DNA of 36,008 nucleotides from Sulfurimonas sp. endosymbiont of Alviniconcha boucheti (GTDB lineage: Bacteria; Campylobacterota; Campylobacteria; Campylobacterales; Sulfurimonadaceae). This document shows, one piece after another, positions 23,092-27,110 of this stretch (positions within the stretch are counted from its first letter, which is position 1; every line of letters starts with the position of its first letter). The notes under the pieces are model-generated. The model was not told the origin of the DNA and searched no databases. It saw nothing but the letters and a program-made list of their open reading frames with translations. Position numbers and translations under genes: made by a program. The DNA lies in assembly GCA_021766785.1 (NCBI GenBank), contig JAICBP010000076.1:62878-98885 (forward strand), written 5' to 3'.

Positions 23092-24111
23092 ATGTACATC
23101 AAAAGATATACAATAGCATCACTCATTTTAATGGGATTATTAGGAGCGTATGTTTTTTCATATGTTACACAAGAATCAATATCTCTTGATTTCTTTGGTA
23201 CTACACTACCAAATCTTTTCATCGCAGTTTGGGTTATTGTACCTGTTGGTATTCTTTATCTTGTTAGTGTTGCACATATCTCCTTTTACTCTCTACTTAG
23301 ATCAGTACAGTTACGTAAGTATGAAAAAGATTTTGATGAGATAATCGATGCTATTGTAGAAGCATATCTTGGAAAACAGAGTAGAAGTCATACTTTTAAA
23401 ACAGAGAGATATACACTTCTAGGAACACTTATTGAAAATACTGCTCTTTTTCCTATGAGTAATGAAACAGAGCTTACTGGAAATGAAAAGATAGATGGTG
23501 TTTTAAAAATAATAGAACAGATAAAAGCGGGTGAAGTTGTAGATCTGAAACCTTTTAATCTTCGTAATGAAAATGAACTTGTTCTTCAAAATAAAAGAAA
23601 CATGTATAAAAAAGGTATATTAACTGCTGAAACTATTCTTGCAAATAAGACGAAGTATGCAGATGTTTTACGTCAAGAGGTTTATGTAGATTATGTAAAA
23701 ACTGCTTCATTTGCAAATATTGAAAAGTATAAAACACTACTAACAAAAGAGTCACTCTATTCCATTATCGCTCGTGTAAATGCGGATAAATATACCCTTG
23801 AAATGAATACAGAAGAGTTGCTTGTTCTTGTAAAAACATTAGATTTTAGCAAAAAAGAGTTTATAAAGCTCTCTTCTGTTGTAGCAAAAGGTGGTATGAT
23901 TCCTGAACAACGTATTCGTCTTTTTGAGATGTTAAGTGATGAGAATGAAGATGCAATGGATGCATACCTTTATACACTTTTTGACTTAGAAATGCTAGAT
24001 CCTGTTGATGAGATACTCGATAATGTTCAAGAGAGTGAATATCAAAATTTTAAAGCATATCGTGCACTGAAAGCATGTAATAAAAACTTTAGCATAGAGT
24101 TGTTTATATAG
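23092..24111 (+). CDS. Conserved membrane-anchored protein of unknown function
   Basis: I do not recognise this 339-residue protein. Two hydrophobic segments (about 8-25 and 42-70) form an N-terminal membrane hairpin with a short periplasmic link (TQESISLDFFGTTLPN). The remaining roughly 260 residues are charged, predicted cytoplasmic and largely helical, with an acidic C-terminal part (FEMLSDENEDAMDAYLYTL). Helical pairs of about 35-40 residues suggest a repeat-like alpha solenoid, which is inference. It starts 4 bases after the DksA-type gene with GGATAAAT upstream and is followed by dus after 3 bases, so it belongs to the accD-dus transcription unit. Confidence 0.7.
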   Translation: MYIKRYTIASLILMGLLGAYVFSYVTQESISLDFFGTTLPNLFIAVWVIVPVGILYLVSVAHISFYSLLRSVQLRKYEKDFDEIIDAIVEAYLGKQSRSHTFKTERYTLLGTLIENTALFPMSNETELTGNEKIDGVLKIIEQIKAGEVVDLKPFNLRNENELVLQNKRNMYKKGILTAETILANKTKYADVLRQEVYVDYVKTASFANIEKYKTLLTKESLYSIIARVNADKYTLEMNTEELLVLVKTLDFSKKEFIKLSSVVAKGGMIPEQRIRLFEMLSDENEDAMDAYLYTLFDLEMLDPVDEILDNVQESEYQNFKAYRALKACNKNFSIELFI

Positions 24112-24114
24112 TTT

Positions 24115-25065
24115 ATGCAAAGAAAACTCTCTTTTAATAAGCCTCTCTTTTTCCTAGCACCTCTTGCTGGGTTTACAGATCTTCCTTTTCGTAGTGTTGT
24201 AAAAAAATTTGGGGCTGATCTTACGATTAGTGAGATGCTTAGTTCAAATGCTTTAGCCCATAGTTCACAAAAGACACTTCATATGTTAGAGAAATCCTCA
24301 CTAGAAGATCCTTACTCTGTACAGATTTCAGCTTCTGAGGTAGATATGGCAAAACGTGCTGTAGAAGTACTTAATGAGCAAGCAGGCATTGATATCATAG
24401 ATCTTAATTGTGGTTGTCCTGTACCTAAGGTTGTTGGACATGGAAGTGGAAGTTCTCTTCTGTTAAATCTTCCTCTTATGGGTGACATTATTAAAACTAT
24501 CAAAGAGACTTCAAACAAAAGTATGACAAGCGTAAAAGTTCGTTTAGGTTTTGAGAAAAAAAATCATATAGACATAGCTAAACTTGTAGAGGATAGTGGT
24601 GCTGACTTTATAGCTGTACATGGTCGTACTCGTGTCGGAAAATTTAAAGCACCAGTTGATTATGATGCTATAAAAGAGATGAAAAATGCTGTAAGTATTC
24701 CTGTTATTGCAAATGGAGATATAGACTCTTATGCAAAAGCTAAATGGGTTTTAGAGCATACTGGTGCAGATGGTGTTATGATAGGGCGTGGTGCAGTTGG
24801 TGCTCCATGGATATTTCACCAACTCCGTTCAGGTGAAGAAGATATTGATTTTGTACTCAAGCATAAGATTATAATGGAGCATTTTGATAGGATGATAGAG
24901 TTTTATGGCGCACATGGTGTTCCTATGTTTAGAAAACATACTCATATATATTCTAAAGGCTATCGAGGTGCCTCTACTCTGCGTAATCAGGTCAATAGCA
25001 TTAATGATATTCAAGAGTATAGAGATACTTTGGATGATTTTTTTAGAAATGGGGCGTTTGCTTAA
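24115..25065 (+). CDS. dusB: tRNA-dihydrouridine synthase (DusB-like)
   Basis: This FMN enzyme reduces specific uridines in tRNA D-loops with NADPH. It has 316 residues. Visible motifs are LAPLAGFTDLPFRSVVKKFG, the active-site Cys region LNCGCPVPKVVGHGSGSSLL, HGRTRVGKFKAPVDYDAI, IPVIANGDIDS and GVMIGRGAVGAPWIF, all DusB/NifR3 type. Its ATG is 3 bases after the previous stop with a poor ribosome-binding site, so it is probably coupled. The next gene begins at the base after its stop. Confidence 0.92.
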   Translation: MQRKLSFNKPLFFLAPLAGFTDLPFRSVVKKFGADLTISEMLSSNALAHSSQKTLHMLEKSSLEDPYSVQISASEVDMAKRAVEVLNEQAGIDIIDLNCGCPVPKVVGHGSGSSLLLNLPLMGDIIKTIKETSNKSMTSVKVRLGFEKKNHIDIAKLVEDSGADFIAVHGRTRVGKFKAPVDYDAIKEMKNAVSIPVIANGDIDSYAKAKWVLEHTGADGVMIGRGAVGAPWIFHQLRSGEEDIDFVLKHKIIMEHFDRMIEFYGAHGVPMFRKHTHIYSKGYRGASTLRNQVNSINDIQEYRDTLDDFFRNGAFA

Positions 25066-26202
25066 ATGTTTGAAATTACTACAAGTATTAAAAACTTAGA
25101 CAACATAGATATTGCTGACAACCTTTTTCATTATGACTACAATACAAAACATCTTCTCTCTCTCATAGCTAAAGGTCTTGAGGTAGATGACCCTGTATAT
25201 ATGAGCTCTTTTCGATCTTTTGAAGGGGAAGCTTTTGAAAATTTTGTATATGAGAAGCTTTTACGCTATGCACAAAAAGATGATAATATTACTAAGTTTG
25301 TACTTAAAGGTTTTCATCAAAATAGGCATAGAGCATATGCAAATACTCTCTCTATTAGTGAGAAAGAGCAGATAGTTTATCGTACGAAGTCTCGAGAGAT
25401 TAGTGAGTTTGATGCTATGTTTATTACGAAAGATAATGAGCTCTATTTTGTAGAGATGACCTTAGTGAAAAATGTTCTCAAACTTCGCAAGAGACTACGA
25501 AAGAAAAAAGCACTTTTAGAAATTATCTTTCCAAATTATGAGATTAAAGCTCTTATTATCTTAAATAATGGGGCTACAGGAACAAGACAGTTCCCTGATT
25601 ACTGTAAGGTATGGTTTACAAAAGAGTTTTCAGCAGTAGATGTCTTAGAGTATATAACAGCGAAAAATAAACGTAAGTTGCTTCCTAAAGAGAAAATAAA
25701 AGGTGGATGTATGATAGAGGCTCATGAGCTTAAGCTACACCCCTTTAAATATTATAACACGATGTCATGGATTACAAAGAGTTTACGAAATCAGAAAAAA
25801 CATATTATCAATATGAACTTCTTAATGACCTTTAAAGTACAGCGCTATCATGATCTTTATAATAAATTTTACATAGGTTATATTTCAATAGAGAATGCGA
25901 AGAGTCTTCTTCATCTTACAGATGAATATAAAGAAGAACAACGAGTAATAGTTGCATTAGAGAAGAAGCATTCTGATGAGATTGTAGTCACTTACTATAT
26001 TCAAACTGGTCGTAAAAAGCTTTATCTATATACTATAGATGAGGAAAAAATAACTAAAGAGAAGAAAGACCCTTATGGTATTACTGTCACAGAAGTTTTT
26101 CACTCTAATAGGCAAATGGATGACTCTTATGAACTAACAATGCAACAACTTAAAGTAATAAAAAAACTTCTTAAAGATCGTTTTTTACAAGAGAAGAAGT
26201 AG
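25066..26202 (+). CDS. Uncharacterised protein with a PD-(D/E)XK nuclease-like core
   Basis: This is a soluble 378-residue protein I cannot name. Residues about 52-180 look like a restriction-endonuclease fold: a helix with FEGEAFENFVYEKLL (Glu53/55/58), a strand with SEFDAMFI (Asp116), then LYFVEMT (Glu130) where the catalytic Lys of E-x-K is replaced by Thr132, with Lys135 nearby. A basic stretch RKRLRKKK (141-148) follows. The C-terminal 180 residues form an alpha/beta region of unknown type. It abuts dus (ATG right after its TAA) and ends the operon. A nucleic-acid role fits the basic patches, but activity is uncertain because of the Lys change. Confidence 0.55.
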   Translation: MFEITTSIKNLDNIDIADNLFHYDYNTKHLLSLIAKGLEVDDPVYMSSFRSFEGEAFENFVYEKLLRYAQKDDNITKFVLKGFHQNRHRAYANTLSISEKEQIVYRTKSREISEFDAMFITKDNELYFVEMTLVKNVLKLRKRLRKKKALLEIIFPNYEIKALIILNNGATGTRQFPDYCKVWFTKEFSAVDVLEYITAKNKRKLLPKEKIKGGCMIEAHELKLHPFKYYNTMSWITKSLRNQKKHIINMNFLMTFKVQRYHDLYNKFYIGYISIENAKSLLHLTDEYKEEQRVIVALEKKHSDEIVVTYYIQTGRKKLYLYTIDEEKITKEKKDPYGITVTEVFHSNRQMDDSYELTMQQLKVIKKLLKDRFLQEKK

Positions 26203-26216
26203 GCTCTATATTACTT

Positions 26217-27110
26217 TTATTCATTCTCTCCATAGACTAAGGATGCTGCTCTCTCTTTATAAGCTTGGAGAGGCTCCTTTATCTGCTCTTTTGGAGATTC
26301 TAAAAAATCCTCAAGTTGTTGATTTCTTTTTTGAAGTATAGAGTCAAACTCTTGTTGTGTATTTGGTTTGATACCTCTAAACTTCTCAAGCAAAATATTA
26401 CTATTGCCCATCAGCACAAGGTAACTCTCTTCACCAAAGTCTAACATTACAACACTGTTTGTTGAGTCTATAGCTTTCTGAAATCTTATTGATACCATGT
26501 TTGTAGATTTTGGTGCTGCTTTTGTCTCTTTTGTATCTACTTTTTCTTGTGTGGTATTAAAGAGCCAAGAATCATCCTTCTCTTTATTTTCTACATTTGT
26601 TACTCTTTTTTTAATAAAAAGAAGAGTGAGAATACCTATAATTAAGATTGCAACAACGATATAGTAGCTCTTACTCATCTCCCCATCTTTTTTTGTGGGA
26701 AGGGCAGAGAGATTAGTGTTAAAAGAGCTCTTTTTAGTTGTAGCAGGATTGGCTAATGCTTTATGTGTAAAACGTAATCTTAACCCATATGCATCAGATG
26801 TTTTAGAGGCAATAAATCTAACATTTTGAGAAGTATATGCTGTTATCTGTGTCTTATCTTTAAGAGGTGTTATAGTGAGAGAGTGTAGATAAGCAGAGTT
26901 TACTTTTTTAAGTTTAGTGGACTCTATACTTGCACCTTCTAGTTTTATAATTATTTTGTTCTTCCCATTACTCTGCTTAATTGTTCCAGAGTAAGGTGTA
27001 TCAAAAGTTATCATAACATCTGCACGATCACTACGTTCATAAATATTGTAGCTAAGTATTTTTGATGCATATATAGAGAGTGGTAGAAGTAGTAGTAGGA
27101 GATATCTCAT
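26217..27110 (-). CDS. fliO: FliO-like flagellar export protein with an N-terminal AMIN-like periplasmic domain
   Basis: FliO helps assemble the FliP ring of the flagellar export gate. This 297-residue protein has a signal peptide (1-15) and a beta-rich periplasmic domain (about 17-117) resembling AMIN domains. One membrane helix (about 148-167) follows, then a cytoplasmic part with the FliO signature around 205-245 (VVMLDFGEESYLVLMGNSNILLEKF). Canonical FliO is about 100-140 residues and lacks the periplasmic domain. A large FliO is known in Helicobacter. It directly follows fliN: the fliN TAG ends at 27111 and this ATG begins at 27110. It converges on the PD-(D/E)XK-like gene with a 14-base gap. 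Confidence 0.72.
   Translation of the reverse strand: MRYLLLLLLPLSIYASKILSYNIYERSDRADVMITFDTPYSGTIKQSNGKNKIIIKLEGASIESTKLKKVNSAYLHSLTITPLKDKTQITAYTSQNVRFIASKTSDAYGLRLRFTHKALANPATTKKSSFNTNLSALPTKKDGEMSKSYYIVVAILIIGILTLLFIKKRVTNVENKEKDDSWLFNTTQEKVDTKETKAAPKSTNMVSIRFQKAIDSTNSVVMLDFGEESYLVLMGNSNILLEKFRGIKPNTQQEFDSILQKRNQQLEDFLESPKEQIKEPLQAYKERAASLVYGENE

Follow-up and report, generated by a model that had tools for sequence, protein, structure and literature searches.

Motif III of the NucS endonucleases is the canonical ExK, and in Card1, Can2 and VC1899 a sensor (CARF) domain precedes the nuclease domain. Across the PD-(D/E)XK superfamily, as described in excerpts of PMC1913061, carboxylates coordinate metal and a lysine in motif III positions the attacking water; in three families, DUF1626, DUF506 and DUF790, the same excerpts place this lysine in the next helix. 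Relevant passages of PMC4909276 describe K124 of the Hantaan cap-snatching endonuclease and K134 of the influenza enzyme as deployed from a helix, and K94 of the La Crosse enzyme as deployed from a strand, and report that the metal ligands and K124 of the Hantaan enzyme are important for activity. For Bax1, a DUF790 protein, the acidic residues named in the corresponding part of PMC7293015 are E275, D305 and E318.

Here we analyse a gene in a 36,008-nucleotide stretch of DNA (the window) from a Sulfurimonas endosymbiont of Alviniconcha boucheti. We propose that it encodes what is probably an active housekeeping nuclease, a stand-alone, metal-dependent PD-(D/E)XK phosphodiesterase with a moved catalytic lysine, and we compare it with the systems above.

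The gene and its neighbours

The open reading frame at 25066-26202 on the + strand has an ATG start and a TAG stop, encodes 378 aa and is a real gene. Its first base follows the dus stop codon with a gap of 0 bp, so the initial annotation was right to place it directly after dus, and its numbering of D116, E130, T132 and K135 is correct on the translated frame.

25066..26202, + strand: whole gene, 378 aa; a PD-(D/E)XK-like domain at the N terminus, then a C-terminal domain with no convincing counterpart in the PDB
24115..25065, + strand: dus, immediately upstream neighbour (PF01207, E 4.5e-78), adjacency conserved in the genus only

Further upstream on the same strand, Pfam matches identify a carboxyltransferase with an acetyl-CoA carboxylase zinc finger, a thiamine phosphate synthase, a SPOUT methyltransferase and a DksA/TraR zinc-finger protein, and a 339-aa protein comes between these and dus. 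Downstream, the opposite strand encodes a 297-aa protein and FliN. Neither of the two flanking proteins, of 339 aa (23092-24111) and 297 aa (26217-27110), matches a Pfam family, though each is conserved in Sulfurimonas. The genome carries one copy of the gene, and the closest named relatives of its product are from Sulfurimonas genomes, at 88-90% identity.

Sequence searches

No Pfam family exceeded its cut-off for the protein, and the same held for 21 members of the family searched at E up to 1. The NCBIfam search and the PDB sequence search were both empty, PADLOC, queried with four proteins at E up to 1, returned no family for any of them, and PHROGs gave noise only. Below the cut-off, DUF4143 matched 22 residues of helix alpha-1 at E 0.0058 and appeared for 3 of the 21 members, and DUF234 appeared for 1 of the 21; as sub-cut-off matches, both are weak hints that we did not adopt as an identity, and the Pfam rows IFT52_central and DUF5928 were taken as noise. 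A literature search of limited coverage found no description of the family, PMC1913061 being the sole relevant paper among the matches listed, and a search for fitness data on the family yielded nothing relevant among the matches listed. The protein is a new, previously unnamed family within a known kind, the PD-(D/E)XK proteins.

Predicted structure

An AlphaFold model of the whole protein, built with 29 aligned sequences, has a pLDDT of 88.6 and a pTM of 0.88 and comprises two domains.

25192..25629, + strand: residues 43-188, restriction-endonuclease-like core as predicted from AlphaFold and structural neighbours, in the order helix, strands, helix, strands
25687..26199, + strand: residues 208-378, C-terminal domain, a confident fold without a convincing PDB match (pLDDT 94.4 when modelled alone)

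The N-terminal domain begins with a long helix (residues 43-71; alpha-1) followed by strands at 75-80, 94-97, 103-106, 111-115, 117-121 and 125-132, a second helix (residues 140-154; alpha-2) and strands at 159-167 and 180-185. E58 lies on the first helix, D116 between strands 111-115 and 117-121, and E130 on strand 125-132; K146 and K147 lie in helix 140-154, which comes next after the motif III strand.

A Foldseek search of the PDB with the model returned nothing at E <= 1e-3; its best rows were Card1 (5.2e-3), VC1899 (9.3e-3) and Bax1 (1.3e-2), followed by EcoO109I (2.9e-2) and a NucS-type repair endonuclease (3.2e-2). In a second structural comparison, PD-(D/E)XK proteins made up most of the 50 best rows. 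The top neighbours, NucS 2vld_B (Z 7.6, rmsd 2.8 Å over 104 residues), EndoMS 5gke_A (Z 7.5, 3.5 Å over 112) and VC1899 1xmx (Z 7.0, 3.1 Å over 112), score in a range, Z < 8, that by the tool's own caveat can reflect a mere common arrangement. NucS/EndoMS, VC1899/Card1/Can2, McrC and BspD6I all align over residues ~43-188 (Z 6-7.6), and HamA, LmuA and SduA are also among the neighbours. The viral structure library gave no row at E <= 1e-3; among its rows are several phage proteins annotated as PD-(D/E)XK, RecB or Cas4, which add nothing specific.

We accept the fold because many independent rows come from one superfamily and because invariant residues occupy its motif positions. By prediction, residues 43-188 adopt a PD-(D/E)XK-superfamily fold with the core elements and the motif I, II and III acids in place, in agreement with the restriction-endonuclease-like core first proposed from the letters.

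The C-terminal domain was modelled alone from 61 rows. Its best Foldseek match in the PDB has E 0.28, and its best match in the structure comparison is a lobe of RNA polymerase at Z 4.6 (3.7 Å over 84 residues); such scattered low matches are no proof of a new fold.

Conservation of the active-site residues

Six-frame retrieval collected 204 full-length matches to the protein, 142 of them unique, which with the window's own row give a set of 143. This set holds full-length rows only, and the window's row may be counted twice; truncated or broken copies and one distant homologue, L120, stand outside its counts. Thinning at 80% identity left 76 rows. At one locus (L070), the gene reads as two open pieces.

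25237..25239, + strand: E58, motif I acid on helix alpha-1, putative metal ligand; 143/143 rows, kept in L120
25411..25413, + strand: D116, motif II, putative metal ligand; 143/143 rows, kept in L120
25453..25461, + strand: E130-M-T132, motif III, in which Thr/Ser takes the place of the usual Lys; E130 in 143/143 rows
25492..25506, + strand: R143 to K147, helix alpha-2, motif IV, with K147 or K146 as candidate migrated Lys; R143, K146 and K147 each in 143/143 rows

The spacing motif was rejected as evidence when taken alone: the pattern D-x(8,20)-E-x-[TSK] occurs in 1963 of 2000 shuffles of the protein, which is chance level, and the case thus rests on conservation and fold. What lifts the pattern beyond chance is that D116 and E130, the acids singled out in the initial annotation, are invariant, that position 132 is only ever threonine (109 rows) or serine (34), and that few acidic residues are invariant at all. 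Lysine never occurs at this position, two residues past the motif III acid, in any of the 143 rows, so the reported replacement of the motif III lysine by threonine extends, as Thr or Ser, to the whole set. The 76 thinned rows share 30 invariant positions, of which 23 fall within residues 1-200; the 30 include six of the 51 acidic residues (E58, E63, E114, D116, E130 and E343) and six of the 65 basic ones (K81, R143, K146, K147, K267 and K334). The invariant residues of the C-terminal domain are F227, Y229, K267, L319, K334, G338 and E343, which suggest a surface for a substrate or partner.

The distant homologue extends the comparison to another family. L120 (4817-5683; G046:C2) is a lone 288-aa protein, present in 1 of 150 genomes from that family; the profile of the present family matches it at E 7.1e-15, over the nuclease part alone. 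L120 retains the equivalents of E58, E114, D116, E130, T132, K135 and K147, and its motif III reads EST; at the positions of E63, K146 and R143 it carries Asn, Arg and Glu, respectively, in an alignment free of gaps over residues 144-156. Among the basic residues of the helix, K147 is the most strongly conserved, since it is kept in L120, unlike R143 and K146.

Conserved lysine and arginine residues in the helix following motif III are the mark of the migrated-lysine variant. The suggestion that the catalytic residue had migrated holds in so far as the basic residues of the helix are invariant; K135, lysine in 134 of 143 rows (otherwise Q in 4, G in 3, R in 1 and T in 1), is not strictly kept and was rejected as the replacement because it varies, and K147 (or K146) is the likelier residue. 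The catalytic lysine would most likely be K147 (or K146), judging by the layout shared with the helix-lysine families.

A restriction-endonuclease fold that has lost catalysis, and in which the acids and the basic helix bind nucleic acid or protein, would also fit the Thr/Ser that stands at the motif III lysine position in all 143 rows, a strongly basic invariant helix and a second conserved domain. A dead site, however, need not keep three metal-ligand positions, which here are invariant and preserved even in L120, and the published families with the same change retain a helix lysine or arginine in the excerpts of PMC1913061. We consider a binding-only protein rather unlikely, and continue with the reading as a nuclease.

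Comparison with helix-lysine and NucS-like nucleases

DUF1626/PDDEXK_10 (PF07788) resembles this family in that its motif III lysine is often threonine and a conserved Lys/Arg patch follows in the next helix; it differs in the N-terminal coiled coil that most of its proteins carry, compared with the C-terminal domain here (both features as given in excerpts of PMC1913061). PF07788 was not listed for the protein at E up to 10, nor for the 21 members at E up to 1, and a search of the genome with it gave matches only elsewhere, at E 0.23 and 0.62.

Bax1 is similar in structure (Foldseek E 1.3e-2, prob 0.96), and migration of the lysine is stated for DUF790 in the same excerpts of PMC1913061. Unlike the present protein, Bax1 is archaeal, partners XPB and carries its nuclease domain (270-372) after other domains, according to passages of PMC7293015. 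Our protein has no Pfam match.

The cap-snatching endonucleases of the Hantaan, Lassa and influenza type likewise draw the catalytic lysine from the helix that follows the motif III strand; the spacings are 14 residues from E110 to K124 and 13 from E102 to K115 (both from passages of PMC4909276), and 13, 16 and 17 residues from E130 to R143, K146 and K147 in our protein. They are, however, viral RNA enzymes, and their structural similarity is weaker (Z 5.0-5.7, rmsd 4.9-7.4).

NucS/EndoMS, to which the nuclease domain is structurally closest (Z 7.6, 7.5), differs in motif III, which is ExT/S in this family. In a search of 32 genomes the NucS_C profile (PF01939) never picked out the gene, and it gave no match for the protein or the 21 members. 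Elsewhere in the same genome, outside the window (G000:C81:410878-411102), another protein scores just over the NucS_C cut-off, at 24.4 bits with its frame neighbours. Card1, Can2 and VC1899 supply the top Foldseek rows (5.2e-3, 9.3e-3) and reach Z 6-7, but the domain order differs: in the present protein the nuclease domain comes first and the additional domain lies at the C terminus.

Distribution and genomic context

In the window's family, a wider profile finds the gene in 145 of 147 genomes and 16 of 16 genera; in a second family, 85 of 89 genomes and 16 of 18 genera carry it. Carriers nearly always have one match per genome. A third family has it in 5 of 38 genomes, all of one genus, and a phylum-wide sample in 95 of 397 genomes; the plasmids, phages and viral contigs searched yielded no relatives. 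A quick tree places the second family on one side of a branch with support 100 and the third-family copies (L108, L116 and L183, from one genus) inside the part of the window's family, with some forks weakly supported, which suggests that this genus may have received the gene by transfer.

The association with dus is local. The two genes are adjacent at 128 loci in Sulfurimonas and close genera (a redundant set), with gaps of -4 to +18 bp; dus is not adjacent in the other genera of the window's family or in the second and third families, where the neighbours are unrelated and vary from genus to genus. A constant genomic partner, sought across the loci, was not found. The gene is a core chromosomal gene whose operon says little about its function. 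Its retention in 145 of 147 genomes of one family and 85 of 89 of the other, while its neighbours reshuffle, indicates a needed function.

In several second-family genomes, a DTW-domain gene (PF03942) is convergent to or near the gene, as at L118:3904-4542 (E 1.6e-48) and like places in L111-L115; we give this proximity little weight.

The tie to tRNA or translation genes drawn from the operon is not supported by this survey, since the dus link is confined to Sulfurimonas and close genera. An RNA-processing nuclease that acts together with dus on tRNA or some other component of translation would account for the 128 adjacent rows, would find an echo in the convergent DTW-domain gene and would suit the cap-snatching RNA endonucleases among the structural neighbours; yet dus is not next to the gene in the remaining genera or in either of the other families, and the DTW gene is inconstant and on the opposite strand. 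Such a role appears unlikely. That the gene is a defence or restriction nuclease, as Card1/Can2, McrC, HamA, LmuA and SduA among the neighbours might suggest, is highly improbable for a near-universal gene, nearly always in one copy, in two families, with no PADLOC match, no plasmid or phage matches and no constant partner gene.

Proposed mechanism and function

In the housekeeping nuclease that we favour, one or two divalent metal ions would be bound by E58, D116 and E130, and K147, or K146 beside it, would extend into the site from helix alpha-2 and take over from the absent motif III lysine. R143 and the other residues of the basic patch could grip the nucleic acid backbone, and the C-terminal domain may select or orient the substrate or mediate dimerization. 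The role would lie in genome or RNA maintenance, not in that of a mobile defence gene. Going by the nature of the structural neighbours, we lean towards structured or damaged DNA over RNA as the substrate.

A narrower proposal, improbable as it stands, makes this protein the founder of a lineage-specific class of housekeeping repair nucleases, in which a NucS-like core with a helix-lysine site, fused to a C-terminal recognition domain not seen elsewhere, would process mismatched or branched DNA. MutL was over the cut-off in 0 of 32 genomes, a sample of carriers and other Campylobacterota; because it is missing in carriers and non-carriers alike, co-occurrence speaks neither for nor against a mismatch-repair stand-in.

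If the protein is a nuclease, these bacteria would have an unnamed core step of DNA or RNA maintenance, and the family would provide a clear bacterial, non-mobile example of a migrated-lysine active site, testable by simple point changes.
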